A DNA stretch of 64,000 nt. Source: Sclerodactyla briareus (taxonomy: Eukaryota; Echinodermata; Holothuroidea; Dendrochirotida; Sclerodactylidae). Location of the stretch: the NCBI GenBank assembly GCA_026419785.1, contig JAODTK010005637.1:359603-423602 (forward strand), read 5' to 3'. Under the pieces are notes generated by a model, which saw nothing but the letters and a program-made list of their open reading frames with translations, had not been told where the DNA came from and did not search any database. The translations under genes and the position numbers were made by a program. Below, piece by piece: positions 7,840 through 62,439 of the stretch. Numbering within the stretch: the stretch's first letter is position 1; each line of letters opens with the position of its first letter.

Positions 7840-7856
7840 TTCGCGCGAAGCGCGAA
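7840..7856. repeat. Perfect small palindrome in repeat copy B
   Basis: TTCGCGC-GAA-GCGCGAA is a perfect 7-bp stem with a 3-nt loop. Copy A has the same motif at 2055-2071 with one extra G in the right arm. Confidence 0.6.
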
Positions 7857-30300: not shown

Positions 30301-31645
30301 AATGAAGAAGAAAAATAAAGAAAGGCAAACTAAATCCACTAGTGCTAACCCCGTCCTCACACGACATTCCGTTACAAAGTATTGTACCTCGAAGTTGTGA
30401 ATCGGGGATCTTATAGCACACTGTCACCAAAAATCATGATGCACTAAAACGAACAAACATATAGTCAAAATGGGTAGAATATTACGTAGACAGAGTAAAT
30501 TCAATTGCCCAGGTGGTATATGTACCCAACAGTTTTTCTTAGAGTGCGTGCAATAATGTATGCCGTGTGTGCTAAACAACTGAAACAGTATCTTATGTAT
30601 CCAATTGCTTTCTCTGTTTAGAAAATTGGCATTGCTCGAGTGCTCGACATGTTTTCGTCAAGAGAAAAAAACGGCACATCATATCAACAGCACAGTGAAC
30701 CTGGCTTGAAACCGATTGAACAGATTATTCCTCAGAGAATTTTACATTTACATCATGTAAGTTCTATTACTCTGTAGTGGAATGTCGAATGAAATGAGGT
30801 TTGGACCAAAAGATTCAGATTGTCTCCATGTATATCACAGAACTCTCCATACATGACCCTTTCGTACCCTTCAAATAATTATATCACCCTCTGTCACAGC
30901 TTGCGCCGAGTCCACACGAACGCATGGAACCGTTTAACTAGATCGACAGAAGACACGTCAGGATTTAGTATCAGTTGACCACTCTGAACCATGTATGGCT
31001 GTGCTGCCGACTTTAACCATAATTTTTTTGTTTCGATCAAGACACTGTCAATCATGTTACATTAAAATCAGAATGCATCACCCACCATTAACCATATCAA
31101 ACAAACACATCACAGACACAAAGTGAGGGAAACCTGTCGTTGTTTGAACCCAGTGAATCACAAAGTAATACCCTGTTGTCAAGTTATGTCTAACATTCAA
31201 CACATACACAGTTCTTGCTTGAATGAGATATTTGAAACCGACCAACCCATTTTGACCTAATGCATATATATATATAACCTTGTAGAATTTATTTCGAAGA
31301 ATATATTTATTATCTATTTCTTCATCATCAATTTAAATAACTTATGAAACTTATGAATCTTGGTATGTAGAGTGGATCGGCAGCCTGTATTTCGTTACTA
31401 CTTTATCAACAATGAACGGACATTGATCACCTGAAATTTAAAATGTGTATGTGTAATTGCATATGTGCAATGTATGGTTATGATATATATGCCTTCGGTG
31501 TTTTTGCATTTTCAGTAAACTATTAGGAGAAATGACTTTTTGCTCTTGGAAGTCGATTTTCCCGAAAAATTTCTCATAGGATTTACTGATAGAGAATCCA
31601 CGATCATTATTTTTGATACCTTGACGAAGTCAAGAGGAATCTATG
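30301..31645. other. No gene; one solo MITE end
   Basis: Contains 30507-30546, a match to one terminus of the MITE at 10386-10540. The rest is AT-rich and unrecognised. Confidence 0.5.
30507..30546 (+). mobile_element. Solo terminus of the CACTCTAAAA-type MITE
   Basis: GCCCAGGTGGTATATGTACC followed by CAACAGTTTTTCTTAGAGTG is almost identical to 10501-10540. No partner end was seen within 300 bp on either side. Confidence 0.6.
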
Positions 31646-31790
31646 CAGTCATGACAGTGTGTGTGTGTGTAATGTATGTAATGTATGTATGTTTTTAAGG
31701 GTTTTCAATGTATTATGTATGTATGTTCTGTAATTTATGTATGTATGTATGTATGTATGTATGTATGTATGTATGTAGTATGTATGTGAG
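31646..31790 (+). mobile_element. Left end of the satellite-bearing element, with TG/ATGT microsatellite
   Basis: CAGTCATGACAGTG (31646-31659) runs into TGTGTGTG and then ATGT repeats, the longest tract at about 31736-31790. The same 14-bp start plus TG-rich run stands at 20820. Sequence to the left of the two copies differs, which defines the boundary. Confidence 0.7.
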
Positions 31791-34700
31791 GGCCTGGCTT
31801 GTGAACACGATATCTCGACTCCACTGGATTGATGAAGCTCATTATTGGTAGGTGGTGTTCCCTCATGATGAGTACAAAAAAAAAAATGGAAACTCTATTG
31901 CTTTTGGGGTCACGGTTCAAGGTCATCTGATGGCCACCAGAGGTCAATCTGAAACCTTGTGACACGATAAGTCCGGAATGGTTGTGTCTGATCGGGTTGA
32001 AATTAGGTGTGTAGCTTCTTATGGGGAGTACAGGAACCTATGTTTTCTGGTATAAGATCGTGGGTGAATTTGGTCAAAATAAAAATTTGTGGAACGTCAA
32101 TAATTGGTCAGTTTTGGCTTGTGAACACAATACTCGACCCAACCTGGAGATGAGCTCATACTTGTTCTGTGTTTTCCCCATGATGAGTACATGAACCCTA
32201 TTGTTTTGGGTCACGTCAGAGGTCATCTGAGTCCCCAAGGTCAAAGAACGTGCGAAAACCTTGTGAACACGATAAGTCCCGGATGGTTGGTTGTCCGATC
32301 GGTTAAATTCGATGTGTAGCTTTCTTATGGAAAGTACAGGAACCCCCCATTGTTTCTGGTAATAGGTTGAGGGTGAATTTTGGTCAAAATCGAAAATTTG
32401 TGAAAAGTTCAATAATTTGGCCGTTTTGGCTTGTGAACACGATACTCGACCCCCCTGGATAGGTGAAGTTCATACCTTGATTTTGTGTTCCCCATTATGA
32501 GTACATGAACCATATTGTTTTGGGGGTCCGTCACGGTCATCTCATGGTCACCAGAGGTCAAAGTCTGAAAACCTGTGACACACGATAAGTCCAAATGGTT
32601 GGCTGATCGGGTTCAAATTTGGTGGTCGCTTTTTTATTGGGAGTACAGGAACCCCGTTGTTTTCTGGAATGGATCGTGGGTGAATTTTGGTCAAAAATAG
32701 AAATTTGTGAAAAGTCAATAATTTGGCCAGTTTTGGGGCTTGTGACAACGATAACTCAACCCGCAACTGGATAGATGAAGCTCATACTTGGGGCATGTGT
32801 GTTTCCCCATGATGAGTACTGAACCCTATTGTTTTGGGGTCAGTCAGAGGTCATCTGAAGGTCACCAGCGGTCAAAGTCCGAAAACCTTGTGACACGATA
32901 ATTCCAGAACTCTTGGTCCGCCGGGTTGAAATTTGGGTGTAGCTTCTAATGGGGATTACAGGAACCCCTAATTGTTCTGATATTTAGGTTTGAGGGGGGT
33001 TAATTGGGTCAAAAATAGAATTTATGAAAAGTCATTAATTTGCCAAATTTGGGCTTGTAAACTCGATAACGCGACCCCGCCTGGATTGATGGAGGTCATA
33101 CTTGGTATTGTGTCCCCATGATGAGTACATGAACATATTGTTTTGGGGTCAGGTCGAGGTCATCTGAGGTCACCAATAGGTTTTTTCAAAAAAAGTCTGA
33201 AACCCTTGTGACACGATAAGTCCAGAATTGGTTGGTCTGATCGGGTTGAAATCAGTGTGTTAGCTTTCGTATGGGGAAGTATAGAAACCCTATTGTTTTT
33301 GGTATAGATCGTAGGTGAATTTTGGTCAAAAATAGAAAATTGTTGAAAAGTCATAATTTTGGTCAGTTTTGGCTGTGAACACAATAACTCGACCCCACTG
33401 GTATAGGTGAAGGTTCCTACTTTGTTTGTGTGTTCCCCCCATGATTAGTACATGACCAATTGTTTTGGGGTCGGTTCGAGGGTCATCATGAGGTCCCCAG
33501 AGGTCAAGTCCTAAACCTTGTGACACGATAATTCCAGAATGGTTGGTCTGATCGGGGTTCAAATTTGGTGGTAAACTTTCTTATGGGAAGTAGAGGACCC
33601 TCTTTGTTTTCGGTATAGATCGTAGGTGAATTTTGGTCAACATTAGAAAAATTTGTGAAAAGTCATAATTGGCCAGTTTTGGGCTTGTGAACCCGATAAA
33701 CTCGACCCCATCTGGATGGAATGACGCTCATACTTGGTATGTTGATTCCCCATGATGAGTTCATGACCCTTATTGTTTTGGGAGTTCGTCCAGAGGTCAT
33801 CTGAGGTCACAGAGGTCAAAGTCCTAAAAACCTTGTGAACACGATAAGTCCCGGATGGTTGGTCCGATCGGGTTCAATTTTGATGTGTAGCTTTCTTATG
33901 GAAAGTACAGGACCCTATTGTTTCTGGTATAGGTTGAGGGTAATTTTGGTCAAAAATAGTAAAATTTGTAAAAAGTCACTAATTGGCCAGTTTTGTTTTG
34001 GCTTGTGAACACGATAAATCGAAACTCGACCCCACCTGGATAGGTGAAGGTTCATACTTGTGTGTGTTCCCCATTATAGTACATGAACCATATTGTTTTG
34101 GGGTCAGGTCAGAGGTCATCTGAGGTCACCAGAGGTGAATGTCCTGAAAACCTTGTGAACACGATAAGTCCAGAATATCTGATCCGATCAGGGTTTTGAA
34201 ATTCTCATGTGTAGCTTTCTTATATGGGAAGTACAGGAACCCCATTGTTTCTGGTATAGGTTGAGGGTTAATGTTTGGTCAAATAGAAAATTCGTAAAAA
34301 GTCAATAATTTGGCCAGTTTTGGGCTTGTGAACACGCTAACATGACCCCACCAGATAGATGACGCTCATCCTTGGCATGTGTGTTTCCCCAGATGATACA
34401 TGACCCTATTGTTTTGGGGTCAGGTTCAGAGGTCATCTGAGGTCACCAGAGGTCAAAGTCCGAAAAAACCGTGTGAACGATAAGTCCGAATGGTTGGTCC
34501 GATCGGGTTGAAATCTGTGTGTAGCTTTCTTATTGGGGCGTATAGAACCCTATTGTTTTTTTTGGTATCGATGTGGGTGCATGTGTTAAAAATAGAAAAT
34601 TTGTGAAAGTCACTAATTTGGGTCAGTTTTGGCTTGTGAACACATAACTCACCCCACCTGGATAGTGAAGTTCATACTTGGTTTGTGTGTTCCCCTGCTT

Positions 34701-37700
34701 GAGTGACATGACAATATTGTTTTGGGGTCAGGTCAGAGGTCATTGAGGTCACCAGAGTCAAAGTCTGAAAACCTTGTGAACACGAAATTCCAGAATGGTT
34801 GGTCTGATCGGGTTCACATTTGGTGTGTAACTTTCTTATGGGAGTATAGGAACCCTATTGTTTCTGGTATGATCGTAGGTGAATTTTGGTCAACAGTATA
34901 CTTTGTGAAAAGGTCAATATTTGGGCCAGTTTTTGGCTTGTGAACAACGATAACTCGACCCCATCTGGATATGAAAGCCTCCTACTTGTATGTGTGTTCC
35001 CCAGGAGTAGTTCATGAACCCTATTTTTTGGGGGTCACGTCAGAGGTCAATCTGAGGTCACCAGAGGTCAAAGTCCGAAGAACATTGTGCCCCGATTAGT
35101 CCAGAATGGTTGGTCCGAGCGGGTTGAAGTTTGATGTGTAGCTTTTCCTATGGAAAGGACAGGAACCCTATTGTTCTGGTTAATAGGGTTATTTGAGGGT
35201 AATTTTGGTCAAAATAGAAAAATTTGTAAAAGAGGTCAATAATTTGGCCAGTTTTGGCTTGTGAACCGATAACTCGACCCAACCTGGATAGTTTGAATTC
35301 ATTCTTGGTTTGTGTGTCCCCATGATGAGTACATGAACCTATTGTTTTGGGTCGGTCCCGAGGTCATCTGAGGTCACCAGAGGTGACAGTCTGAAAACCT
35401 TGTGAACACGATAAGTCCATAATGGTTGTTCCGATCGGGTTGAAAAATTCGCATGTGTAGCTTTCTATGGAGAGTACAGGAACCCCTTGTTTTCTGTAAG
35501 GTTGAGGGTGAATTTTGGTCAAAAATAGTAATTGTGAAAAAGTCATAATTTGGCCAATTTGGCTTGTGACCACACGTATCACCCCACCAGTATACTGAAG
35601 CTCATACTTGGCATGTGTGGTTCTCATAATGAGTACATGAACCCTATGTTTTGGGTCCGGTCAGAGATCATCTAGGTCACCAGAGTCAAAGGCCGAAAAC
35701 CCTTGTGAAACACGATAAGTCCAGAAGGGTTGGTCCGATCGGGTTGAATTTTGGGTGTAGCTTTCTTATGGGGAGTACGGAACCCTATTGTGTCTGTATG
35801 GTTGAGGGTGAATTTTGGTCAAAATAGAAATTGATGTAATAAGTCATTAATTTGGCCAGTTTTGGCTTGTGAACACGATAACTCGGCCCCACCTGGATGG
35901 ATGAAAGCTCATCCTGGTAGGTGTGTTCCCCATGAGATACATGGAACCATATAGTTTTGGGGTCAGGTCAGAGGTCATTCTGAGGTCACCAGAGTCCAAA
36001 GTCTGAAAACCTTGTGAACACGATGAATCCGAATGGTTGGTGGTCCGATCGGTGATACCAGGTGTGTTATCTTTCTTATTGGGGAGTATAGACCCTATTG
36101 GTTTCTGGTATCAGATCGTGGTGGGTGATTTTAAAAATTTAGAAATTTGTGAAAAGTCAATAAGTTGGTCAGTGTTTGGCTTGTGAAACGATGACTCGAC
36201 CCCACCTGGATGGATGAAGCTCATACTTTGGTATGTGTATTCCCCATGATGAGTACGGAACCAATATTGTGGGTTTTGGGGTCGTCAGGTCATCTGAGGT
36301 CACCAGAGTTCAAAGTCTGAACCTTGTGGAACCGATAAGTCCAGAATGGTTGGTGTTCCGATCGCGGTTGAAATTCGATGTGTACCTTTCTTATTGAAAA
36401 GTACAGGAACCCCATTGTTTCTGGTATATGTTGAGGGTGATTTTGGTCAAAAATATAAAATTCGTAAAAAGTCAATAATTTGGCCAGTTTTGGCTGTGAA
36501 CACGATATCGACCCACCAGGATAGATGAACCTCATACTTGCATGTGTGTTCCACCCATGATGAGTAGCCAGGAACCCTAGTTGTTTTTTTTTTTGTTTTG
36601 GGGTCAGGTCAGAGGTCATCTGAGGTCACCAGAGGTCAAAGTCCGAAAAACCTTGTGAACACGAAACGTCCAGAATGGATGGTCCGATCGGGTGAAATTT
36701 GGGTGTAAGCTTTCTTATGGGGAGTATCAGAACCCCTATTGTTTCTGATATAAGGTTGGAGTGAATTTTTGGTCAAAAATAGAAAATTGATGAAAGTCAT
36801 AATTTGCCAGTTTTGCTTGTAGCACGAAACTCGACCCCACACCCTGTATGGATGAAGCTCATACTTTGTATGTGTGTTCCCCATGATGAGTACTGAACGC
36901 ATATGTTTTTGGGTCATGTCCGAGGTCTCTGCAGGTCATCTAAGAGTCCAAGTCTGAAACCTTGTGAACACGATAAGTCCAAATGGTTTGTCTGATCGGT
37001 TTCAAACCATGTGTGGTAGCTTTCTTATGATTCTTATGGGGAGTATAGGAACCCTATTGTTCTGGTGATAGATCGTGGGTGATTTTGGTCAAAATTAGAA
37101 AATTTTGGCAAAGTCATAATTTGGTCCATTTTTGGCTTTGAACACGATGTACTTCGACCCCACCTGGATGGCATGAACTCATACTTGGTATGTGTGTTCC
37201 CCATGATGAGTACATGAACCTATTGTTTTGGGGTCATGTCAGAGGTCATCTGAGGTCACCAGAGGTCCAAAGGTCTGAAAACCTGGTGAACACATAAGTC
37301 AGATGGTTTGGTCTGATCGGGTTCAAATTTGGTGGTGTAGCTTTCTTAGGGGAGTACAGGACCCTAATTGTTTCTGGTATAGATCTGGTGCATTTTGGTC
37401 AAAATAGAGAATTTTTGAAAAATCATAAGTTGGCCCAGTTTTGGCTTGTGAACACGATAACTCGACCCACCTGGGGGGGGATGTAGAAGCTCATACTTGG
37501 CATGTGTTCCCCATGCTGAGTACATGAACCCTATTGTTTTGGGTCAGGTCAGAGGTCATCTGAGGTCCACCAGAGGTCAAGTCCGAAAACCTTGTGAAAA
37601 CACGATAAGTCCAGAAATGGTTGGGTCCGATCCAGGTTGAAATTGGGTGTAGCTTTCTTATGGGGAGTACAGGAACCCTATGTTTCTGATATAGGTTGAG

Positions 37701-40700
37701 GGAATTTTTGGTCAAAAATAGAAAATTTATGAAAGTCCTTAAATTTGGGGCCGGTTTGGCTTGTGAACACGATACTCGACCCCACCATGGCTGATGAAGC
37801 TCATACTTGGTAATGTGTGTTCCCATTATGATACATGAACCATATTGTTTTGGGGTCAGGTCAGAGGTCATCTGAGTCACCAGAGGTCAAAGTCCGAAAA
37901 ACCTGTATGCACGATAAGTCCAGAATATTCGTTCCGATCGGGTTGAAATCAGGTGTGTAACTTTCTTATGGAGTATAGGACCCTATTGTTTTCTTCTGGT
38001 ATAGATCGTGGTGAATTGTGGTCACAGTAGAAAAAATTGGTTGAAAGTCAATAATTTGGCCCATATTGGCTTGTGAACCCGAAACTCAATCCCATCTGGA
38101 TGGATAAGCTCATACTTGGTACGTGTGTTCCCCATGATGAGTACATGAACCTATTGTTTTTGGGTCACGTCAGAGGTCATCTGAGGTCACCAGAGGTCAA
38201 AGTCTGGAAAACTTGTGAACAACGATAAGCCAAATGGTTGTCCTGATCGGGTTCAAATTTGTGTGTAACTTTCTTATGGGGAGTATAGGACCCTATTGTT
38301 TCTTTTTTCTGGTATAGATCGTGGGTGACTTTTGGTCAACAGTAGAAATTTGTGAAAAGACAATAATTTGGCCAGTTTTGGTTGTGAACACGATACCTCG
38401 AGACCCCATCTGGATGGATGAAGCTCATACTTGTTATGTGTGTTTCCCCCATGATGAGTTCCTGAACCTATTGGTTTTGTGGTCACGTCAGAGTCATCTG
38501 AGGTCACCAGAGTCCAAGTCCGAAAACATGTGAACGACGATAAGCCAAGAATGGTTGGTCCGATCGGGTTGAAATTTGATGTGTAGAAGGCAAGGGTACG
38601 TCAAGGTCTTTCTTATGAACGTACAGAACCCTATTGTTTCTTTCTGTATAGGTTGAGGTAAATTTGGGTCAAAAATGGAAAATTTGTAAAAAAGTCATAT
38701 TTGGCCATTTTGCTTGTGAACACGATACCTCGACCAACCTTGATAGGTAAGTTCCTACTTGGTTTTGTTGTGTTCCCATGATGAGTACATGAACCATCTT
38801 GTTTTGGGTCAGGTCAGAGGTCATCTGAGGTCACCTGAGGTGAAAGTCGAAAACCTGTGAACACGATAAGTCCAGAATGGTTTGGTCCGATCGGGTTGAA
38901 ATTCGATGTTAGCTTTCTTTATGGAAAGTACAGGACCCCCATTGTTTTCTGGTATAGGTTGAGGGTGAATTTTGTCAAAATAGAAACTTATGTAAAAAGT
39001 CCATAATTTGGCCGTTTTGGGCTTTTGAACACGATACCTCGACCTTACCTGGATGATGAGCTCATATTGGCATGTGTGTTCCCCATGATGAGTACATGAA
39101 CCCTAATTTTTTGGGGTCAGGTCAGAGTCATCTGAGGTCACCAAGGTCAAAAAAGTCCGAAAACCTTGTGAACACGATAAGTCCAGATGGGGTGGTCTGA
39201 TCGGGTTGAAAATTTAGGTGTGTATCTTCTTATGGGGAGTAACAGGAACCTATTGTTTCTGATATAGGTTGAGGGTGACTTTGGTCAAAAATAGACAATT
39301 GATGAAAAGTCATTTAATTTGGCCAGTTTTGCTTGTGAACACGATAAGTCGACCCCACCAGGATGGTAAGCTCATACTTGGTATGTGTGTTCCCATGATG
39401 AGTACAATAACTCATATAGTTTGGGTCAGGTCCGAGGTCATCTGAAGTCACCAGAGGTCAAAAAGTCTGAAACCTTGTGAACACGATAAGTCCAGAATAT
39501 TCGGTGTCCGATCGGGTTAACCAGTTGTGTATCTTTCTTATGGGGAGTATAGGAACCCCTATTGTTTCTGGTAAGATCGTAGGTGAATTTTGGTCAAACA
39601 TTAGAAATTTGTGAAAAGTCATAATTTGGTCAGTTTTGCTTGTGACACACGAAATGACTCGCCCCCCTGGATGATGAAGCTCATACTTGTGGTATGTGTG
39701 TTCAAACCATGATGAGTTACATGAAACCAGATTGTTTTGGGGTCAGGTCCGATGTCATCTGGAGGTCACCAGAGGCCAAATCTTAAATCCTTGTGAACAG
39801 TCAGTCCGAATGGTTGGATCCCGCTCGGGTTGAAATTCGATGTTGTATCTTCTTATGAAAGTACGGAACCCCTTGTTTTTGGTATAGGTTGATGGTGAAT
39901 TTTGGTCAAAAATAGAAATTTGTAAAAGTCCTAATTTGGCCAGTTTTGCTTGTGGTGAACACGATAACTCGACCCCACCCCATGATATATGAAGCTCATA
40001 CATGGCATGTTGTGTTCCCATGATGAGTTACATGAACCCTATTGTTTTGGGGTGCAGGTCAGAGGTCATCTGAGGTCCCACCAGAGGTCAAAGTCCGAAA
40101 ACCTTGTGACCACGATAAGTCCAGAATATCTGATCCGATCAGGTTGGAATTTGGGTGAGCTTTCTTATGGGGAGTACAGGAACCCTAATTGTTTCTTGCT
40201 ATAGGTTGAGGTGGAATGTTTGGTCAATAGAAAATGATGAAAAGTCATATTTGGCCTTTTGGCTTGTGGAAACGATCACTCGACCCCACCATGGATGGGG
40301 ATGAAGCTCATCCTTGGTAGTGTGTGTCCCATGATGAGTACATGAACCATATTAGTTTTTGGGGTCATCAGAGGTATCTGGGTCACCATAGGTCCAGTCT
40401 GAAACGTGCTGAACACGGAACACATAATCCCAGAATGGGTTGGTCCGATCGGGTTGAAACCAGTGTGAGCTTTCTATGGGGGAGTATAGAACCTAATGCT
40501 TTTGGAATAGATCGGGGTGAATTTTGGTCTAAAAATATAAAATTTGTGGAAAAGTCAATAATTTGGTCATTTTGGCTTGTGAACAACTATGACTCGACCC
40601 CACCTGGATGGATGACCTCCATACTTTGGGTATGTTGTTCCCCATAGATGAAGTACAATGAACCATATTGTTTTTTTGGGGTCAGGTCAGAGTCATCTGA

Positions 40701-43700
40701 GGTCACCAGAGGTCAAGTCCGAAAACCTTGTGAACACGAAAAAAAAATAAGTCCAGATGGTGGTCTTATCGCGTGTTCAATTTTGGTGTGTACTTTCTTA
40801 TGGGGAGTAAAGGAACCCTATTGTTTCTTCTGGTATAGATCGGGGTGAATTTAGGTCCAAAATAGAGAATTTTTGAAAGTCCCAAATTTGGCCAGTTTTG
40901 TGCTTGTGAACCGATAACTCGACCCCAACCTGGATGGATGAATGCTCATACTTGGCACGTGTGTTCCCATGATTGAGTACATGAAACCCCATTGTTTGGG
41001 GTCAGGTCAAGGTCATCTGAGTCCCCAGAGAGGTCAAAGTCCGACAACCTTGTGAACAGATAATTCCAGAATGGTTTGCCGATCAAGTTGAATTTTGGGT
41101 GTAGCTTTCTTATGGGGAGTACAGGAACCCTATTGTTTCTGATATAGGTTGAGGGTGAATTTGGTCCAAATAGAAATTCTGACAAAGTCATTAATTGGCC
41201 ATTTTGGCTTGTGAACACACGATAACTTGACCTGACCTGGATGCTGAAGCTCATACTTGTATGGGTGTTCCCCATGATATTAGCATGAACCATATTGTTT
41301 GGGTCAGGTCAGAGGTCATCTGAGGTCACCAGAGGTCAAAGTCAGAACACCGTGTGAACACGATAAGTCCAGAAATGGTGGTTCCGATCGGGTTTGAATC
41401 AGGTGTGTAACTTTCTTATGGGGAGTATAGAACCCCTATTGTTTCTGTATAGATCGTGGGTGAATTTTGGTCAACATTAGAAAATTTGTGAAAAGTCAAT
41501 AATTTACGGCCAGTTTGGCTTGTAACACGATAAATCCACCCCATCTGGAGTGGATAAGCTCATACTTGGTATGTGTGTTCCCATATGATTACATAACCCT
41601 ATTGTTTTGGGGTCACGTCATAGGTCACTCTGAGGTCACCAGAGGTCCAAAGTCCGAAAACCTTGTGACACTATAAGGTCCAGAAATGGTTGGTCCGATC
41701 CGTGTTGAAATTTGATTGTAGCTTTCTTATGGAAAGTATAGGCCCTATGTTTTCTGGTATAGGTTGAGGTTACTTTTGGTCCAAAATAGAAAATTTTTTA
41801 AAAGTCCAATAATTTGCAGTTTTGGCTGTGAACACGATAACTCGACCCCACCTGGATAGTGAAGTTCATACTTGGTTTTTGGGCTCCCCATGAGAGTATC
41901 TGAACCATATTGTTTTTGGGGTCAGGTCAGAGGTCTCTGAGGTCACCAGAGGTGAAAGTCTGAAAACGCTTGTGAACATAAGTCAGAATGGTTGGTCCGA
42001 TCGGGTTGAAAATTCGATGTGGTTCTTTCTTATGGAAAGTACAGGAAACCCATGTTTCTGGTATAGGTTGAGGATGAATTTTGGTCAAAAAAGAAATTTG
42101 TAAAAAGTCATAATTTGGCCATTTTGGCTTGTGAACAAAGTATACCTGACCCCACCTGGATAGGATGAAGCTCATACTTGGCATGTGTGTTCCCCATGCT
42201 GAGTACATGAACCCCTCCTTGTTTTGGGGTCAGGTTCAAGGTCATCTGGTCACCAAGGTTCAAGTCTGAAAAACCTTGTGAACACGATAAGTCCAGAATA
42301 TTCGGTCTGATGGGTTGCAAATTTGGTGTGTGCTTTCTTATGGGGAGTACAGGAACCCGTTGTTTTCTCTGGTATATATCGTGGGTTGAATTTTGGGGGG
42401 GTCCAAACTAAAAATTTGTGAAAAGTCAATAAATTTGGCAGTTTTGCTTGTGAACACGATTCAACCTCACCCCACCTGTATAGAATGAAGCTTCATACTT
42501 GCTGTGTGTTCCCCATGTGAGTACCTGAACCATATTGTTTTGGGTCAGGTCAGAGGTCCCTATGAGGTCACCAGAGGTCACAGTCCTGAAAACCTTGTAA
42601 CACGATAAGTCGAATGGTTGGTCTGATCGGGTTAAAATCAGGTGTGTAGCTTTCTTATGGGATATAGAACCCCATTGTTTTCTGGTATAGGTTGAGAGTG
42701 TGAATTTTGGTCCAAAAAATAGAATTTTGTAAAAGGTCAATAATTTGGCCATTTTGGGCGTGTGAACACGATAACTCACAACTCAACCCCACTGGATAGA
42801 TAAGCTCATACTTGGCTGTTGTGTTCCCCATGATGAGTAGAAAATGACCATATTGTTTTGGGGTCGGTCAGAGGTCATCTGGGGTCCCAGAGGTCAAAGT
42901 CTGAGAAAACCTTTGTGACACGATAAGTCCAGCATGGTTGGTTCCCGATCGGTTTGGGGGCAATCCTGTGTGTAGCTTCTTATGGAGTCTAGGAAACCCC
43001 ATTGTTTTCTGGTATAGGTTGAGGTGAATTTTTGTCAAAATAAGAAAATTTGTACAAAGTCAATAATTGGCCATTGGCTTGTGGAACACGATACACTCGA
43101 CCCCCCCTGGTATGGTTGAAGTTCCTACTTGGTTTTGTGTTCCCCATGATGCGTTCATTACCATATTGTTTTTGGGGTCATGTCAGAGTCATCTGATGTC
43201 ACCAGAGGTCAAAGTCTGAAAACCTTGAGAACACGATAAGTCCCAGAATGGGTTGGTCTGATCGGGTTTCAAATTGGTGTGTAACTTTCTTATTTGGAGT
43301 ATAGGAACCCCTATTGTTTTCTGGTATAGATCGTGGGTGAAGTTTGGTCAACAGTAGAAATTTGGTGAAAAGTGTCAATAATTTGGCCAGTTTTTTTGGC
43401 TTGTGAACAACGATACTCGACCACATCTTGATGGATGAAGCTCATACTTTGTATGTGTGTTCCCCATGATGAGTTCATGACCCTTATTGTTTTAGGGGGG
43501 GTCACTGTCAGAGGTGCACTCTGAGGTCACCAAGGTCACAGACGTCCGAAAACCCTTGTGAACAGATAAGTCCAGAATGGTTGGTCTATCGGGTTAAATT
43601 TGATGTGGTAGCTTTCTTATGGAAACACAGGACCCCTATTGTTCTGGTATAGGTTGAGGTCAAATTTTTGGTCAAAATAGAAAATTTGTAAAAGTCAATA

Positions 43701-46700
43701 ATTTTGGGGGCCAGTTTGGCTTGTGAACACCGCTAAACTCGAACCCACCTGGAAGATGAAGCTCATACTTGGTCATGTGTGTTCCCATGATGAGTACTGA
43801 ACCCTATTGTTTTGGGGTCAGGTCAGAGGTCATCTGAGGTCACCAGAGGTCAAAGTCCTGAAAACCTTTGGTGACACGATAAGTCCAGAATGGTTGGTCT
43901 ATCGGGTTTCAAATTTGGTGTGTATCTTTCTTATGGGTAGTCCCGCACCTGTTGTTTCTGGTCTAGATCGTGGGTGAATTTTTCAAAAATAAAATTTGTT
44001 GAAAAGTCCATAATTTGGTCATTTTTGGCTTGTGAACCACGATTACTCAACCCCCACCTGGATGGTTAAAGCTCACCTTGGGCAATGTGTGTTTTCCCCA
44101 TGATGAGTATCATGAACCATATTGTTTTGGGTCAGGTCAGAGGTCATCTGAGGTCCGAGAGGTCAAAGTCTGAAAACTTTGTGAACACGAAATAAGTCCA
44201 GAATGGTGTGGTCCGATCGGGTTTGACAATCGGTGTTGCTTTCTTATGTGAGTATAGGAACCCCATTGTTTCTGTATAGTTGAGGGTGAATTTTGGTCAA
44301 AAATCGAAAAGTTGTAAAAATTCAATAATTTGGGCCAGTTTTGGCTTGTGAACACGCATAACTCGACCCCCCCTGTGATAGATGAGCTCCTACTTGGCTG
44401 TGTGTTCCCCATGATAGTACATGAACCCCTAAAAAAAATTGTTTTGGGGGTCAGGTCAGAGGGTCATCTGAGGTCCAAAAAACAGAGGTTCCCCCCCCAA
44501 AGTCCTGAAAACCTTGTGAACACTGACGGATAAGTCCAGAATGTTGTCTGATCGGTCTCAAATTTGGTGTGTGCTGTTCTTATGGGGATACCGGAACCCT
44601 ATGTTTTCTGTATAGATCGTGGGTGAATGTTGGTCAAAATAGAAAATTTGTGAAAAGTCAATAATTTGGTTAAGTTTGGCTTGTGAACACAATAACTAAC
44701 TCGACCCCACCTGGATAGGTGAAGTTCATACTTGGTGTTGTTGTGTTCCCCATAATGAGTACATGAACCATATTGTTTGGGGGTCAGGTCAGAGGGTCAT
44801 CTGAGGTCAACCAGAGGTCAAAGTCCTGAAAAACCTTGTGACACGATAATTCCAGAATTGGTTGGTCTGAATCGGTTCCAATTTTGGTGTGTAGCTTTCT
44901 TATGGGGAAGTACCGGGAACCCTATTTTTCTGCCTATAGAATCGTGGGTGAATTTTGGTCAAAAATAGAGAATTTGTGAAAAGTCATAAATTGGCCAGTT
45001 TTGGCTTGTGAACAACGATAACTCCGACCCCAAGCTGGATAGATGAAGCTCATACTGGCATGTGTGTTCCCATGATGATTACCTGAACCCTATTGTTTTG
45101 GGTCAGGTCAGAGGTCCTCTGAGGTCACCAGAGTCAAAGTCCGACAACCTTGTGAACACATAAGTCCAGAATGGTGTCGGCGATCAGGTGTGAAATTTGG
45201 GTGTAGCGTCTTTCTTTTGGGAGTACACAGGACCCTATTGTTTTCTGATATAGGTGCGGGTGACTTTCGTCAAAAATATAGAAATTTATGAAAGTCATTA
45301 ATTTGGCCAGTTTTGGCTGTGAACACATCAACTCAACCCCACCTGGTATAGAAGCTCTACTTGCATGTGGTGTTCCCCATGATGAGTACCATGAAACCAT
45401 ATTGTTTTTGGGCAGGTCAGAGGTCATCTGAGGTCAGCTGAGGGCAAAGTCTGAACACCTTGTGAACACGATAAGTCCAGAATGTTTGGTCCGATCGGTT
45501 GAAATTTGGGTGTAGTTCTTTCTCATGGGGAGTACGGGAACCCTATTGTTTCTGATATTATTTGGGGGGTGGATTGGTCAAAATAGAAAATTTGGAAAAG
45601 TCAATATTGGGCCCGTTTTGGCTTGTGAACATATAACTGACCCACCTGGATGATGAAGGCATACTTGGCTTTGTGTTTCCCCATGTGAGTACATGAACGC
45701 ATATTGTTTTGGGGTCAGGTCAGAGTCCTTCTGAGGTCACCAGACGTCAAAGTCTGAAAACTTTGTGAACACGATAAGTCAGAATGGTGGTCCGATCTGG
45801 GTTGAAATCAGGTGTGTAGCTTTGCTTAATGGGAGTATAGGAACCCATTGTTTCTGTTTCTGGTATAGGTTGAGGTGAATTTTGGTCAAATAAGAAAATT
45901 TGTAAAATGCAATGAATTTGGCCAGTTTTGGCTTGTGACCACGCCTACTCGACCCCACCTGGGCTAGATGCCCTGCATACTTGGCATGTGTGTTCCCCAT
46001 GAGAGTACATGATTCCTATTGTTTGGGGCAGTCAGATGTCATCTGAGGTCACCATAGGTCCAATGCCTTAAAACCTTGTGAACACGATAAGTCCAGAATG
46101 GTTGGGGTCCTGATCGGGTTCAAATTTGTTTGTAGGCTTTCTTATGGGGAGTACAGGAACCTTATTGTTTCTGGTATTGTTCGTGGTGAATTTTTGGTCA
46201 AGAATAGAAATTGTGAACAGTCATAATTTGTCAGTTTTGGCTTGTGAACACAATAACTCGACCCCACCTGGATAGGTGAAGTTCATACTTGTTTGTGTTT
46301 CCCCCTGATGAGTACATGAATCCATATTGTTTGGGGTGTCAGGTCAGAGGTCATTCTGAGGTCATCATAGGTCAAGTCTGAAAACGCTTGTGAACACATA
46401 AGTCCAGAATGGTTGGTTGATCGGGTTCAAATTTGGTGTGTAGCTTTCTTATTGGGGAGTATCAGGACCCTATTTGTTTCTGATATAGATCCTGGGTGAA
46501 TTTTGTCAAAAATAGAGAATTTCGTGAAAGTCAATAATTTGGTCCATTTTTGGGCTGGTGAACACGATAACTCGACTCAACTCGACCCCACTGGATAGAT
46601 GAAGCTCATACTTTGCATGTGTGTTCCCCATGATGGAGTACTGAACCCCCTATTGTTTTGGGGTCAGGCAGAGGTCATCTGAGGTCACCAGAGGTCATAG

Positions 46701-49700
46701 TCCGAAAACCCTGTGAACACACGATACGTCCAGAATGGGTGGATCGCGATCACTTTGAATTTTGGGTGTAGCTTTCTTATGGGGAGTACAGGAACCTATG
46801 TTTCTGATAGAGGTTGAGGGTGCATTTAGTCACAAATGGAAATTTATGAAAAGAAGTGCATTATTTGGTCCAGTTTTGGCTTGTAACACGATAACTCAGA
46901 CGCCCACCTGGATAGATGAAGCTATACTTGGCATTTGTTTTCTCCATCGATGAGTACCTACCCCATATTGTTTTGGGTCAGGTCATAGGTCATCTGAGGT
47001 CACCAAGGTCAAGTCTGAAAACCTTTTGAACACGCTAAGTCCAGAATGGTTGGTGCCGATCGGTTGAATTTTGGGTGTAGCTTTCTTATGGGGAGTACAG
47101 GAACCTTATTTTTTCTCATATAGGTTAGGGTGAATTTTGGTCAAATAGAAATTTATGAAAATGGCATTAATTTGGCCCGTTTTGCTTGTGAACAACACGA
47201 TAACCCGACCCACTTGGATGGTGAAGCTCATACTTGGTCATTTTGTTCCCATGATGAGTACATGCACCAATTGTTTTGGTCAGGTCAGAGGTCATCTGAG
47301 GTCACAATGAGCAAGTCCTAAAGTCCGAAAACCTGGTGAACCGATAAGTCCAAATGGGTTGGTCTGATCGTGTTGACATCAGGTGTGTAAACTTTCTTAT
47401 AGGGAATTATAGGAAACACCCTATTGTTTATCTTGTTAGATCGTGGGTGAATTTGGTCAACATAGAAAATTTGTGAAAAGTCAATAATTTGGCCAGTTTT
47501 GGCTTGTTGAACATGATAACTCGACCCCATCTGGATGGATGACGCTCATACTTGGTATGTGTGTTCCGCCATGATCACAATCCAAATCACACCAAACCTA
47601 AATTTAAAATTTTGGGGTCACCGTCAGAGGTCATCTGAGTCACCAAAAAGGGTCCAAGTCCGAAAACATTTTGAACACGATAAGTCAGAATTGTTGTTCC
47701 GATCGGGTTGAAATTTGATGTGTATGCTTTTCTTATTGAAAGTACAGGAACCCTATTGTTTCTGGTATAGGTTGAGGGTAATTTTTGGTCAAAAATAGAA
47801 AAATTTGTAAAAAGTCAATAATTTGGCCAGTTTGGCTGTGAACACGATAACTCGACCCCACCTGGTATAGGGTGAAGTTTCATACTTGGTTTGTGTGTTC
47901 CCGCATGATGAGTACATGAACCATATTGTTTTGGGGTTCAGGTCAGAGGTCATCTGAAGGTCCCAGAGGTCAAAGTCTGAAAACTTGTGAGCACAACGAT
48001 AAGTCCAGAATGGTTGTCCCCCTTCCCCCGATTGGGTTGAAATTCGATGTGTAGCTTTTGGGAAGTACAGGAACCCCCATTGTTTCTGGTATAGGTTGAG
48101 GGTTAATTTTGGTCAAAAATAGAAAGAAAATTGTAAAAAGTCAATAATTTGGCAAGTTTGGCTTGTGACACACGATAACAAGGGATCCCACTGGATAGAT
48201 GACGCTCATACTTGCATGTGTGTTCCCCATGATGAGTACATAACCCATTGTTTGGGTGTCAGGTCAGAGGTCATCTGAGGTCACCAGAGGTCAAGTCCGC
48301 AAAACTCTGTTACACGATAAGTCCGAATGGTTGGTCCGATCGGGTTGAAATTTGGGTGTAGCTTCTTATGGGGGAGTCACAGGAACCCTATTGTTTCGAT
48401 AAGGTTTGAGGGTGAATGTTCTGGTCAAAAAATTAGAAAATTTATGAAAGTCATTAATTTGGCCAGATTTTGGCTTGTGTGAACACGATAACTTCGCCCC
48501 ACTGGATGGATGAAGCTCATACTTGTATGTGTGTTCCCCATGATGAGTACATGGAACCATATTGTTTTGGGGTCCGGTCAGAGGTCATCTGAGGCACCAG
48601 AGTCAAGTCTAAAACCTTGTGAACACTATAAGGCCAGAATGGTTTGTCTGGAGGGGATCGATCGGGGTTGAAATCAGGGTGTTTGAGCTTTCTTATGGGG
48701 AGTAGGAACTCCATTGTTTCTGGTATAGATCGTGGGTGATATTTGGTCAAGAATATAAAATTTGTGCAAAGTCATACATTCGGTCAGTTTTGGCTTGTGA
48801 ACACATAACTCGACCCCACCTGGGATAGGTGAAGTTTATACTTGGTTGGTGGTGTTCCCCATGATGAGTACATTAATACTTTTGTTCTTCGGTCAAGTCA
48901 GAGCCTCTGAGGTCCCCAGATGTCAAAGTCCGAAAACTTGTGAACACGATAAGTCCAGAATGGTTGGCTGTATCGGGTTCAAATTTGGTGTGTAGCTTTC
49001 TTATGGGAGTACAGGAACCCTATTGTTTCTGGTATGATCGTAGGTGAATTTTGGTCAAAATAGAGAATTTGTGAAAAGTCATTAATTTGGCCAGTTTTGG
49101 CTTGTGAACACGATAACTCGACCCCACCTGATAGATGAAAGCTCATACTTGGCTGTGTGGTTCCCCATGATGAGTACATGAACCCTATTTTTTTGGGGTC
49201 AGGTCAGAGAACGTCTGAGGTCACCAGCGGTCAAGTCTGAAAACCGTTGTGGTAAACACCGATAAGTCCAGAATGAGTTGGGTCCGTATCGGGTTGAAAT
49301 TGGATGTGTAGCTTTCTTATGGAAAGTAGCAAGAACCCTATTGTTTCTTTCTGGTATATGGTTGAGGTAATTTTGGTCAAAAATAGTAAAATTGTTGTAA
49401 AAGTCAATAATTTGGCCAGTTTTGGCTTGTGAACACGATAACTCGACCCCACTGGATAGGATGAAGTCATACTTGGTTTGTGTGTTCCCCTGATGAGTAC
49501 ATGAACCATATTGTTTTGGGTCCAGGTCAGAGGTCATCTGAGGTCACACCAGAGGTCAAAGTCTGAAAAGCCTTGTGAACATGATGAAGTCCAGAATTGT
49601 TGGTCCGATCGGGTTGAAATTCGATGTTTGCTTTCTATGGAAGTACAGAACCCCCCATTGTTTCTGGTATAGGTTGAGGTTAATTTTGGTCAAAAATAGA

Positions 49701-52700
49701 AATTTTAAAAATTCAATAATTTGTGCGGCAGTTTTGGGGCTTGTGAACACGATACTCGACCCACCTGGATAATGAAGCTCATACGTGGCATGTGTGTTCC
49801 CCATGATGAGTACTGAGCCTATTGTTTTGGGGTCAGGTCCGAGGTCATCTGAGTCACCAGAGGTCAAGTCCGAAAACTGTGAACACGAACAGTCAACAGT
49901 TGGTCCGATCGGGTTGAAATTTGGGGTAGCTTTTCTATGGGGAGTACAGTGAACCCTATTGTTTCTGGATATGGTGGATAGGTGAATTTTGGTCAAATAG
50001 AAATTTATTGAAAAGTCATTATTTGGCCAGTTTGGCTTTGAACACTATAACTCGACCCCACTGATGGATAAGCTCTACTTGGTATGTGTGTTCCCACTGA
50101 TGAGTACATGAACCATATTGTTTTGTGGGGGGTCAGGTCAGAGTCATCTGAGGTCACCAGAGGTCAAAGTCTGAACCTTGTGAACACGATAAGTCCAGAA
50201 TGGTTGGTTCCGATCTGGGTGAAATTTGGTGTGTATTTGTCTTATGGGGAGTATAGGAACCCTATTGTTTCTGGTATTATATCGTAGGTGAATTTTGGTC
50301 AAAATAGAAATTGTGAAAATTCAATACTTGGAATTCGTTCAGTTTTGGTCTTGTGAACACAATAACTTCGACCCCACCTGGAGGTCATTTATACTGGTAT
50401 GTGTGGTTCCCCATGATGAGTACATGTAGCATAGTGTTTGGGTCCGGTCATAGGTCATCTGAGTCCCAGAGGTCAAGTCCGAAACTTGTAACACGATAAG
50501 TCCACAAGGTTGGTTGCTCTGATCGGGTTCAAATTTGGTGTGTAGCTCTATGGGGGAGTACCGACCCTATTGTTTCTGGTATGATCGTGGGTGAATTTTG
50601 TCAAAAATAGAGATTTGTGAAAAGTCATTAATTTTGGCCAGGTTTGGTCTTGTGAACACGATACTCGACCCCACCTGGATAGATGAATCTCATACTTGGC
50701 ATGTGTGTTCCCCATGATTAGTCCCATGAACCCTATGTTTTGGGGATCAGGTCAAGGTCATCTGAGAGTCACGCAGAGGCAAAGTCCGCAACTTGGTGAA
50801 CACGATAATTCCAGAATTCTTGGTCCGCTCAGGTTGAATTTGGGTGTAGCTTTCTATGGGATAAGGACCCTATTGTTTCTGATATAGGTTGAGGGTGAAT
50901 TTTGGTCAAAAATAGGAAAATTTATGAAAAGTCATTATTTGCCAGTTTTGGCTTGTGAGCACGATCATCTCTCGTCCCCACCTTGAATAATGAAGCTCAT
51001 ACTTGGCATGTGTTTCCCCATGATGAGTAATGGACCCTATTGTTTTGGGTCAGGTCAGAGGTCATCTGAGTCAACAGTGGTCAAAGACATTGAAACCTTG
51101 TGCACACGATAAGTCCAGACAGGTTGGTCCGATCAAGTTGAATTTTGGGTGTAGCTTTCTTATGGGGAGTACGGAAACCCTATTTTTTCTGATATAGGTT
51201 GAGGGTGAATTTTGGTCAAAAAATAGAATTTATGAAAAGTCATTAATGTTGGTCCAGTTTTGGCTTGTACACATACTCGACCCCACCTGGATGGATGAAA
51301 GCTCCATACTTGGTATGTGTGTTCCCCTGATGAGTACTGAACCATATCGTTTTGGGGGTCAGGTCAGAGGTCATCTGAGGTCCCCAGAGGTCAAAGTCCG
51401 AAAACCTTTTGAACACGATAAGTCCAGAAGGATTGGTCCATCGGTTGAAATCAGGTGTGTAACTTTCTTATGGGTGAGTATAGAACCCTATTGTTCTGGT
51501 ATAGATCGTAGGTGAATTTTGGTCAACAGTAGAAAATTGTGAAAAGTCAATTAATTTGCGCAGTTTTAGGACTTGTGAACCGATAACTTCGACCCCCATC
51601 TGGATGGATGAAGCTCATACTTGGTATGTGTGTTCCCCATGATAGTACATGAACCCTAATTGTTTTGGGGTCACGTCAGAGGTCTCCAGAGGTCACCAGA
51701 GGTCCAAGTCCGAAACCTTGTGACACTATAAGTCTCAGAATGTTGTCCGATCGGGTTGAACTTTGCTGTGTAGCTTTCTTTTATGGAAAGTACAGAACCC
51801 TATTGTTTCTGGTATAGGTTGAGGGTGAATTTTGGTCAAAATAGAAATTTGTAAAAAGTCAATATTTGAGCCAGTTTTGGCTTGTGAACACGATACTCTA
51901 CCCCACCTGGGATAGGGCAGTTCCATACTTGGTTTGTGTGTTCCCCATGATGAGTACTGAACCATATTGTTTTGGGGTCAGGTCAGAGAAGTCATCTGAG
52001 GTCACCCAGAGGTCAAAGTCTGAAAACATTGTGTGAACACGATAAGTCAGAATTGTTGGTCCGATCACGGGTTGAAATCAGGTGTGTAGCTTTCTTATGG
52101 GAGTATAGTGGACCTATTGTTTCTGGTTATAGATCGTGGTAATTTTGGTCAACAGTAGGAAATTTGTAAAAAGTCCATAATTGGCCAGTTTTTGTCTTGT
52201 GAACACACGATTAACTCGACCCCATCTGGATTGATGAACTCATAGCTTGTTGTGTGTTCCACATGATGAGTACATGGACCTCTTGTTTTGGGGTCACGTC
52301 AGAGGTCATCTGAGGTCACCAGAGGTCAAAGTCTGAAAACCTTGTGAACACGATGAGTCCAGATTTGTTGGTCCGATCGGTTGAAATTTGGGTGTAGCTT
52401 TCTCATGGGGAGTAACGGGAACCCTATTGTTTCTGATATAGGTTGGGGGGGGGGGGGGGATTTTGGTCAACAATAAAAAAAATTGCGAAAAGTCAATAAT
52501 TTGCCAGTTTTGGCTTGTGAACATGATTACTCGACCCCACTCGATAATGGCTGTTACTTGGTCTGTGTGTTTCCCCATGATGAGTAAACTGACCATATGG
52601 TTTGGGGTCAGGTCATAGTCATCTGAGGTCACCAGAGGTCAAAGTCTGAAAACCTTGTGAACACGATGAGTCCAGAATGGTTGGTCCGATCGGTTGAAAT

Positions 52701-52965
52701 TTAGTGTGTAGCTTTCTTATGGGGAGTACAGGAACCCTATTGTTTCTGGTATAGGTTGAGGGTGAATTTTGGTCAAAAATAGAAAATTTGTGAAAAGTCA
52801 ATAATTTGGCAATTCTGGCTTGTGAACACGAGAATGCCTCACATGAATCGATGAAGCCCTACTTGGTATGTGGTTTTCCCCATGAGGAGTAAATGCATCC
52901 CTATCTTTTAGGGGTCAGGTCATGAGTCATGATGAGTAGTGAACCCTATGTTGAGGGTCACAGAG
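31791..52965 (+). repeat. Satellite array: about 67 tandem monomers of ~313 bp
   Basis: Anchoring on the GTTTTGGGGTCAGGTC word gives 68 occurrences between about 31908 and 52910, an average period of about 313 bp. Word order within a unit: GGTCAGGTCAGAGGTCATC, TGAGGTCACCAGAGGTCAAA, GAAAACCTTGTGAACACGAT, AAGTCCAGAATGGTTGGTCC, GATCGGGTTGAAATTT, TAGCTTTCTTATGGGGAGTA, CAGGAACCCTATTGTTTCTG, GTGAATTTTGGTCAAAAATA, GTCAATAATTTGGCCAGTTT, TGGCTTGTGAACACGATAAC, TCGACCCCACCTGGATAGAT, GAAGCTCATACTTGGCATGT, GTGTTCCCCATGATGAGTAC, ATGAACCCTA. The two halves of the unit share TTGTGAACACGATAA and a GGAACCCTATTGTTT/TGAACCCTATTGTTT word, so the monomer probably arose from an older ~155-bp dimer. All short open frames inside are chance: the period is not a multiple of three and indels are frequent. 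Edge monomers are more degenerate than central ones. Confidence 0.97.
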
Positions 52966-53150
52966 GCAACAAGCTAATCCTAGGAACCCTATTGGTTGGG
53001 GAAATGTGAAATTTGTCAGACGATATGTTTCCCATAAGAGCTTGGTAAATCTTCCATTTGTCTGTGTCTGGTTATAGGTTATCAGAAAAGGATCAAGGAA
53101 TCACTAAGTCTTATGGCTTTCTGGTTTAACATATGAACTGTACTTGGTCC
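52966..53150 (+). mobile_element. Right-end segment of the satellite-bearing element
   Basis: After the last degenerate monomer come AGGAACCCTATTGGTTGGGG, AATTTGTCAGACGATATGTT, TCTTCCATTTGTCTGTGTC and AAGTCTTATGGCTTTCTGG. The same words occur in the same order, inverted, at 61191-61345 and 63125-63295, each time directly next to monomers. The exact outer end is not resolved; similarity fades near 53150. Confidence 0.7.
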
Positions 53151-59115: not shown

Positions 59116-61190
59116 GTACATCTATAGTTAGATAGAACAAGATAGAACATAAAGGGGTGTACGCTGTTTGACTGTATAGTGTGGGAAGACACGTCACTTG
59201 TGTCAGTCACTAAGGTGTGTGATCGTTACAGTATATAAGAACCGGATATTAATATGATGATAAACCCATAGTTTCATAGTTTTTAGGAAATGTATCGTGC
59301 ATTAAATATGGAATAAAGTAACGGATGTAAGATTAAGCGATGAAGCGTTATCTAAGAATCGATATTGTATGACGAGATAGTCCATTGCACTAGAAAAGGA
59401 TACCTTTTTTGCCATCTTGAAGTGAGAATAGAGCACTGAAAAAATGCAAGCATATAAATGTTCGATAAATGTTAAGTTATCGTTCGCTTTATATCGGTCA
59501 AATTTGTACTCCACTGTTAAGTGGTTATATACCCACCTGCCTTGATGAAATATATGGATTCACAGTACTTGGAGATGAACGAAATATTGTTGCATGTAAT
59601 TCAATAATAAAATGTCAGGCTTTCTGTTTTTCTTCTTATACAGTAATTTCAGGTCACCCAGGTGGCCATGCAGAGTCTGTAGAGGTGCCTCCACATCAGA
59701 AGGATTTTGAGCATGGAAAGTTGATATATTTGTCTTGTATTGTCTTGGACTATGCAACACCAATTAGTGGTTATCACTGCATAGGGGACCGTAAACAACA
59801 GGCACAGGCTTATTGAAGAGTCAGAGTCGAAGATGATGATAAAGAATTTACACCATCACCAGAGCAAATCGTCAGGAAATGTTTTCCATATGGACTATAG
59901 CTCATGTGAACGATAGATACCAGTTCAACAGTCCTAGTGGAAGTGTGACAACTGGTGACGAATCCAAGCTGGGCTATGATAAGAACTAAAGGAATATTCC
60001 ACTATGGTGGAGCCGGAGCTCTATAACGATAGATCAATAGACTGAGCAGCTGGGAAAGATATGCTAAGCTATGAGTGACGCTGAAACAACGCCAGGTCGG
60101 GGTATAGTTTTCTAAATGTCTTTTCATATAACAAAAAAACTTTGGATATATTATTCAGGGGCAAGAGGGTAGGAACTGAACCCATACAATAGACCATCAG
60201 ATAGGCATACGCAGTTGGGAACTGCCGCATAGTAGTTTTTCGGAGGGCGACTATACAGAACCTCCACGATCGTACATATCCCAGCTCCTTTGCTGTGAGT
60301 TTCTCGAGTTAGTTACTTCCAAAACGAAACCCTATAGAAACATTCAGGCATTATCACCTCCGGAAATAGGACGATCAGTGCTACTACCTACTACATTTGT
60401 ACGAGTTGACTAGAAGATGTTGTGGCCCTATCTAACGTCTAACCGCTTCCAATGAATCCACAAATCAAGAAATGAGGGGGGGAACAGTTCCATGCAATGA
60501 GTCCGGTCACAGTTGCGGTATGGCTATGTCACAGAATGGACATCAATGGGATTCAGGAAAATAGAGTTAGGGTAACCTCAGGAGTCCTATTTCATTGATG
60601 CGTCAAACATTCTGTGTCACAATCCGCCTTGTTGCATTTTAAAGTTATGATGGTAATTTTCATGTCAAAGGTCATTCGGATACACACGCAGGCACAGACT
60701 GCCCGAACCGTGTACGAAACATCTTTGAAAACTCCTCTTTATGAAAATGCGTATTCAACGACATATACCAGATCGTGTCCCAAAGATATGATCCATCTGT
60801 GGAGAAAAAAGTTAAGAATCTATTTTCAACTGATTTATGTAGGTAATGGTGTCTAATTGTACCGAAAAAAAAATGCCGCCGGTAGAGGATGAGGAACCTG
60901 ATTTTTCCTTCCAAATGGTTCCAAATGGCCGCCGAATAGAGGGAAATCATATGAAATGCATGATCATTCGAAAAGTCGCTGTAAATTTCCGACAAATTAT
61001 TGTTCAGATCTTGTTTAATCAATGCGAGCACATACGCGACACTCCCATGTCATGCTGCTAGTATGTGCCAAGATCAAGATAGTGGCCAATATGGCCGTCA
61101 ATTCCTTGGAAATTTACACAAAAAAATATATAACTGGGATAAATCTGTCTGGAAAAGTGATGCCAGCTCCAAACATAACAGCACATATAA
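59116..61190. other. No gene recognised
   Basis: An open stretch at 59469-59816 contains a splice-acceptor-like TTCTTCTTATACAG (to about 59643), but its product is unrecognised. Open stretches at 60672-61031 on the minus strand are likewise unrecognised. Nothing firm. Confidence 0.45.
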
Positions 61191-61722: not shown

Positions 61723-61741
61723 TCAAGAGGGTGGGGGATGA

Positions 61742-62132: not shown

Positions 62133-62439
62133 GATCAAGCCTTTTTCTGAACGCAGAGGCATCGCTGTCAGCATCCAACAAGCTGGTGAAAGTCCCGAGT
62201 CATGTGTTCCACAACTCTTGTGGGGAGCGACACCCATAATTCCTGAAACAGGCCTATCAGAGTATATTGCTCCACAGACTTCCCACCAACAGATGCAAGC
62301 ACTCCACATGACCTATAGAGTTCACCCCATTCATTACAGAAGGTGTATTTGTAACAGCATAGATTGAGTCAATCATTGCAGACATGGGCGGTGTTCCTAG
62401 GTCGATTCAAGCGTGCACTAAGTATCACTCAACCGTTCG
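62133..62439. other. Unrecognised; possibly LINE upstream part
   Basis: Lies between the SINE and the LINE. The start of LINE similarity is not sharp, so part of this may be decayed LINE linker sequence. Confidence 0.3.

Follow-up and report, generated by a model that had tools for sequence, protein, structure and literature searches.

A 64,000-nucleotide stretch of Sclerodactyla briareus DNA (contig JAODTK010005637.1, positions 359,603 to 423,602; hereafter the window) holds a 21-kb tandem array that is very probably the centre of one non-autonomous Helentron-type (HINE/DINE-1-like) transposable element copy, grown in place to a satellite. Five of the seven HINE features are present, namely subterminal inverted repeats (subTIRs), a 5' inverted repeat, a microsatellite together with oriented repeats, a 3' palindrome and insertion at T; the other two concern the lack of a target site duplication and an autonomous partner that has the same ends and encodes Rep/helicase plus endonuclease. 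The copy measures 21.5 kb in total, and the initial annotation of the window was right that the array is real and bounded on both sides, with 67 monomers of ~309 bp. The parts of the copy are as follows.

31614-31625, plus strand: 5' subTIR TGATACCTTGAC (family consensus TGATTCCTTGAC), preceded by Ts at 31610-31613; the true 5' end
31629-31641, plus strand: inverted repeat GTCAAGAGGAATC, complementary to the 5' subTIR with a 3-bp spacer (hairpin with the 5' subTIR)
31646-31659, plus strand: left core motif CAGTCATGACAGTG, inside the true terminus
31660-31787, plus strand: TGTA microsatellite of the left flank (repeat finder)
31795-31877, plus strand: first, partial monomer, entered at monomer position 224 (profile)
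31902-52899, plus strand: 67 tandem monomers of ~309 bp (repeat finder and profile)
52900-52981, plus strand: last partial monomer, degenerate, merging into the right flank
52982-53125, plus strand: right flank segment ending in ...GGCTTTCTGGT, then T
53092-53103, plus strand: 3' subTIR ATCAAGGAATCA (family consensus GTCAAGGAATCA, exact reverse complement of the 5' consensus)
53106-53119, plus strand: 3' palindrome AAGTC-TTAT-GGCTT

The left terminus had been placed at 31646 in the initial annotation. The true one lies at ~31614, 32 bp outside that position, because the left similarity among genome copies mostly starts at 31605-31611, in or before the adjoining T-run. When the right-end 12-mer of another window copy, near 61 kb, is reverse-complemented, it matches the 12 bases at 31614-31625 with one mismatch. 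By shuffling, the chance of a subTIR match of such quality within the 60 bases that flank the left motif on its outer side was 0.0015, and a subTIR match with at most two mismatches plus a 6-bp inverted repeat was seen in 0 of 20,000 shuffles. In many family copies the inverted repeat reads GTCAGAGGAATC. The 14-bp left core motif occurs exactly only at 20820 and 31646 in the window, so that its recurrence at 20820, also claimed initially, stands; with up to two mismatches it has 4 matches in the window, a number reached by none of 100 shuffles. On the other side, the genome-wide similarity mostly stops at 53125-53129, and the 3' palindrome reads AAGCC-TTTT-GGCTT in many family copies. Inside the array there was neither a second left core motif (at most two mismatches) nor a right-flank profile match above 8 bits.

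Between these ends, Tandem Repeats Finder reported a single array of period 309 and 67.1 copies at 31896-52930, and a profile built from the array defined 67 monomers of ~309 bp. The monomer consensus is a diverged dimer of 167- and 144-bp halves with 97 of 142 aligned positions identical (alignment score 102; the best of 500 shuffles did not exceed 70). The exit phase of the copy is unreadable, as the last partial monomer is too degenerate. We recognised no protein that belongs to the element: Pfam gave nothing over the curated cut-off for 10 open stretches, and a sequence search of the PDB with one open stretch gave nothing below E 0.69. Rfam gave no match and ARAGORN found no tRNA. A two-motif monomer pattern was found in 0 viral contigs and 0 genome contigs, a 16-mer matched 8 viral contigs, which is about chance level by our own estimate, and the 61-kb copy found nothing in a phage search. 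A search of the papers available for four stretches of the monomer sequence yielded 0 matches, which is weak evidence of absence.

To see the family as a whole, we searched the genome of the window itself (319,486,128 bases in 3,171 contigs). A first look gave 1,997 candidates for the left-end query and 1,597 for the right-end query, 40 of each were scored, and 30 each of the 40 left-end and 41 right-end scored matches were examined as loci. These loci are best-scoring matches and not a random sample, and the family counts exclude the window's own copy (L009, L017, L056). Of the 29 right-end loci, 18 had a same-strand left end no more than 1.5 kb away; extension of four of the other 11 added a left end in L050, L052 and L053 and none in L051, giving 21 of 29 paired overall. 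Conversely, 18 of 29 left-end loci had a right end within ~1.5 kb, and in at least two of the 11 unpaired ones (L057, L085) the monomers reach the end of the examined DNA. Array-side monomers were present in all right-end loci but L027 and L042 (27 of 29; L041 has just a 61-bp piece) and in all left-end loci but L074 and L080 (27 of 29), and no wrong-strand part appeared in the 18 + 18 paired loci. The initial annotation had proposed a bounded element with a variable monomer number and had set such a genome-wide collection of ends as its test; in the loci examined, the mostly paired ends with monomers beside them support this proposal.

The internal arrangement of the bounded copies is similarly regular. 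Among the 18 found through their left end, the first monomer starts at position 218-228 in 16 (14 of them at 223-226), one starts at position 3, and one is without a monomer match. We also made a mixed left-end-plus-monomer query, which is biased to monomers near left ends and of which 8 of 124 matches were examined as loci; all seven non-own loci had at least one end, and four had both (L010, L012, L013 with L054, L014). The 44 bounded copies that were sized, including a C2413 copy, are 325 to 3,264 bp long (median ~1,070 bp), in a list made by hand in which lengths above ~1.65 kb are under-sampled. They hold roughly 0 to 10 monomers, and beside them the window copy is an outlier. Not every pairing is simple: an inner right end occurs in L026, and L029 and L035 lie inside monomers, L035 being a bounded copy set into another copy's monomers at about position 150. 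Exact 25-mers occurred 209 times in the genome, with 100 places listed, and such counts are no measure by which to rank arrays, the main array itself having only 2.

The termini of the family are well defined. For their statistics, end matches with fewer than 9 of 11 motif positions or with short flanks were left out. The consensus 5' subTIR (n=40) and 3' subTIR (n=47) are exact reverse complements, and a hairpin lies 3' of the 3' subTIR in family copies. The T fraction at the five bases 5' of GATTCC is 0.93, 0.97, 0.90, 0.95 and 0.93, and 0.20 at the sixth (n=40); at the first base after CTGGT it is 0.84 (n=38). The microsatellite feature was taken from the window copy alone, where it is the TGTA tract. 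No constant target duplication was found among 23 paired copies, and 8 of them were without any. The longest flank match averaged 2.6 in these copies versus 1.5 for swapped flanks, with a maximum of 10 bases, presumably in L068 within an ATT repeat; we attribute this excess to the T-rich, simple-repeat surroundings. In L078 (~1506-3081, element strand), whole elements stand head-to-tail, and the right end is fused to the left end at two junctions, CTGGT being joined to TAATTCC twice without host DNA and without a T-run. Units one and two of this locus share 541 of 600 positions, and unit two shares 316 of 326 with the examined part of unit three. A third junction-like match, in L072, has kept its Ts. 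Such end-to-end joining without target Ts would fit circles or rolling-circle concatemers.

To get insights into the growth of the array, we compared its 67 monomers with 133 others (131 dispersed and 2 elsewhere in the window) in a tree; here and in the distance and indel comparisons, monomers with fewer than 270 aligned positions were left out and one C1951 monomer was counted twice (overlapping loci L015 and L055). The array monomers needed 4 parsimony changes, against a mean of 56 and a minimum of 47 in 200 label shuffles, and the largest pure array clade contains 53 of the 67. This near-single clade supports one founder rather than collected foreign arrays. Plain distances give a less clear picture: they are 0.152 within the array, 0.169 between array and dispersed monomers and 0.158 between dispersed elements, and the nearest neighbour is inside the array for 30 of 67 monomers (22.2 expected). 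Moreover, the order of monomers is not random. Similar monomers tend to have similar successors (correlation 0.118, p=0.001), repeated runs of at least three number 12 (mean 3.5 and maximum 11 in 500 permutations), and the order of mixture types gave p=0.0002 when 4, 5 or 6 types were set (the lowest value that 5,000 permutations can return) and p=0.053 when 3 were set. Because of the near-single clade and the non-random type order, the array most likely grew in place via duplication of multi-monomer blocks and then halted.

In terms of mechanism, the layout of a left flank (5' subTIR, inverted repeat, TGTA microsatellite), central repeats and a right flank (3' subTIR, hairpin) suggests, by family analogy, an element that a Helentron Rep/helicase would mobilise in trans by rolling-circle replication. 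Replication may start at the 5' end and stop at the 3' hairpin, and the product may land between Ts. A candidate partner was sought with PF14214 (Helitron Rep domain), which gave 3 matches over the cut-off in 2 places in the genome; at L048 (C2413:103101-103575) the Rep domain is read in two frames and sits upstream of a complete bounded copy, at a distance of 1.2 kb. In the window copy, the central repeats would have gone from a few units to 67 in place, with both ends still readable, possibly by unequal exchange or slippage of several-monomer blocks; homogenisation may then have ceased and the monomers diverged. On balance, we lean towards the whole of this account, in which a single HINE copy kept both ends, became a 21-kb loosely ordered satellite and then stopped homogenising, leaving an intact intermediate between element and satellite.

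Several observations weigh against it. The subTIRs of the window copy agree with each other at just 10 of 12 positions, and the 3' stem of this copy folds weakly (-1.0 kcal/mol). By plain distance, the nearest neighbour of 37 of the 67 monomers lies outside the array. The Bayesian information criterion favours 2 types, and the order tests covered 3, 4, 5 and 6; the order signal is limited to the next monomer, with z at most 1.6 at steps 2 to 10. Distance at common variants against spacing showed no departure of 3 standard deviations from shuffles at 33 lags, and the closest array monomers are still 6.5% apart, whereas dispersed monomers reach 0%. Recent unequal exchange is therefore not visible in the array, there being no pair below 6.5% and no spacing effect. 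In the genome, 8 of 29 right-end loci are unpaired (L020, L022, L027, L028, L034, L036, L041, L042). Seven of these were searched to ~1.5 kb, and L034 and L042 are near a contig start; L028 and L036 have their first monomer at positions 224 and 226, the usual left phase, with the left end undetected. Finally, no Rep match was found between such ends, the better locus lying 1.2 kb outside a bounded copy, and helicase and endonuclease were not searched.

The divergence of the array leads to the first of the other explanations. Within L013 (C2838) and within L015 (C1951), the five full monomers of each locus differ by ~2% on average, the value farther along C1951 (L055) is 8%, and other elements reach 18-26%. 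Private differences are 0.099 in pairs alike at common sites versus 0.110 overall. An old frozen array, added read error or a combination of the two would each be consistent with the divergence; our data cannot decide between them, and the age of the array is therefore not readable from the divergence. It is possible, though doubtful, that noisy long reads or misjoined copies in the assembly account for part of the array's length or divergence, the true copy being shorter or cleaner. Indel events per substitution are higher in the array than in dispersed monomers (0.505 versus 0.344), the private noise is about even along the array, which has only those two exact 25-mers, and a nearby 2.3-kb duplication carries 48 transitions, 166 transversions and 155 gap runs. 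On the other hand, substitutions exceed indels, and the linked common variants together with the near-monophyly are a real signal. Read error as the main cause of divergence was at first favoured from low transition shares and then lost weight, as the share is equally low in the rare variants of dispersed monomers; it is retained as a rival reading.

It is rather unlikely, but worth weighing, that the long array was made during transposition, by repeated rolling on a circle without a 3' terminator, and was inserted already long. The head-to-tail elements of L078 are in line with this, a rolling-circle route is discussed in the available parts of two papers (PMC8268682; PMC12628747), and a multi-monomer circle would likewise yield an ordered array. 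However, published arrays often have multiple 5' ends and one 3' end, according to the accessible text of PMC12628747, and here neither another left core motif (at most two mismatches) nor a right-flank profile match above 8 bits lies inside the array; the monomer order is also just loosely cyclic, with many steps skipped. A canonical Helitron or a miniature inverted-repeat transposable element (MITE) in place of a Helentron derivative is very improbable. The CACTAAG of the right flank is superficially like a CTRR end and the subTIRs resemble short terminal inverted repeats, but the ends are T(n)TGATT...CTGGT(T) and not 5' TC and 3' CTRR, the sites are T-runs and not A-T, and the constant target duplication of a MITE was not seen in 23 copies. 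The Helitron-type parallel drawn by the initial annotation was thus right in kind and is sharpened to Helentron/HINE ends rather than canonical Helitron ones. An ordinary open-ended satellite with merely similar flanks is hardly credible: standalone arrays of HINE-type monomers do exist in the oyster, as the part of PMC8268682 at hand reports, but here, from locus to locus in the genome, the ends recur, the left phase hardly varies, the termini carry inverted repeats and the insertions sit in T-runs, all of which speaks against it.

The window contains further copies and remnants of the family.

20820-20966, plus strand: older copy with left core, microsatellite-like stretch and partial monomer (20881-20966)
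21257-21571, plus strand: the 20820 copy resumed past a SINE-like insertion (short interspersed element; 20967-21256), right end not found by profile
61187-61712, minus strand: truncated copy with right end and ~1.3 monomers (monomer part 61325-61712), unrelated DNA on its left
63140-64000, minus strand: copy with right end and ~2 or more monomers (monomer part 63258-64000), leaving the window
14250-14648, plus strand: old partial-monomer pair, spacing ~206 bp; right-flank profile found no end

The initial annotation had counted four window copies with about 1, about 2, more than 2 and about 67 monomers between the ends, which did not hold up: only the main copy has both. It was correct that the right-end segment recurs by monomers, here delimited to 61187-61335 and 63140-63287 (minus strand), with 82-86% pairwise identity; the right-end profile, itself built from the three copies, matched them with E 1.7e-40 to 2.9e-42. 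The right segment of the 61-kb copy has GTCAAGGAATCA and then a short stem AAG(C/T)C...GGCT. By profile, the monomer exits at position 150 in the 61-kb copy and 165 in the 63-kb copy. The monomer is entered at exactly position 224 in both of the copies that have a left end, the partial monomer of the 20820 copy beginning at 20883; this common left phase is unexpected for random flanks. The 14-kb pair is a fifth monomer site that was absent from the earlier list. A right end after it had been spotted by eye and was dropped, as the right-flank profile gave no support.

Some other observations in the window may be recorded. A lone fragment at 18251-18300 (E 0.0015) resembles the central part of the right flank and lies away from any monomer. 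We take the stretches at 20967-21256 and ~61725-62135 to be SINE-like, by eye, from tRNA-like promoter motifs and a GCGCTATATA tail; they interrupt or adjoin old copies, and the second is flanked on both sides by TGATCAAG. A minisatellite with a 43-bp unit occupies 15811-16418 (14.4 copies, 94% matches). The 2.3-kb direct duplication (3-2220 and 5769-8014) has 81% identity, and 107 of its gap runs are single-base; it looks more like a noisy or false assembly duplication than like evolution.

A long satellite inside a transposable element with readable ends makes the direction from element to satellite visible at one locus. Moreover, monomer phylogeny, order and copy lengths in one genome make block duplication versus rolling-circle amplification directly testable. 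Fixed ends with a variable number of tandem repeats are likewise a property of Pearl of bivalves and DINE-TR1 of Drosophila virilis, to which we liken the present family without sequence comparison, and DINE-TR1 has also grown into a satellite.

The Helentron/HINE features have been contrasted with those of canonical Helitrons, and the ends found here fit the former, as far as the accessible portion of that study goes (PMC4067079). The DINE-1/HINE elements of flies and mites described there are alike in 12-15 bp subTIRs, a 3' stem-loop and a preference for T, and DINE-1 also in an inverted repeat by the 5' subTIR and a microsatellite, whereas the central array here is far longer than any in the passages compared and the partner here is only putative. 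In the Pacific oyster, Cg_HINE has an 11-12 bp subTIR, an inverted repeat after 1-12 bp, a mostly 4-base microsatellite, monomers of mostly 140-180 bp, a 3' subTIR with palindrome, and T-rich targets with no sign of duplication (PMC7492417). In the available sections on Cg_HINE / Cg170-HindIII, the likeness extends over subTIRs, inverted repeat, microsatellite, central repeats, palindrome, T-rich target, one orientation, many one-ended copies, and monomers that also occur in long arrays (PMC7492417; PMC8268682). On the other hand, our monomer is a diverged dimer of ~309 bp, and the two are likened by layout and not by monomer sequence. For oyster CgiSat01, the accessible part of the source gives a longest element-associated array of 89 monomers of ~165 bp, one-sided copies counted, against 67 monomers and 21 kb in a bounded copy here, and a longest standalone array of 232 monomers or ~40 kb (PMC8268682). 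In bases, the 21-kb array is longer than the element-associated arrays in the excerpts of the literature compared. A 2025 review, in its accessible part, calls repeat expansion common in Helitron/Helentron elements (PMC12628747). Growth of HINEs into satellites is thus already published, and what is new here is the family in this genome together with its long, doubly bounded copy.

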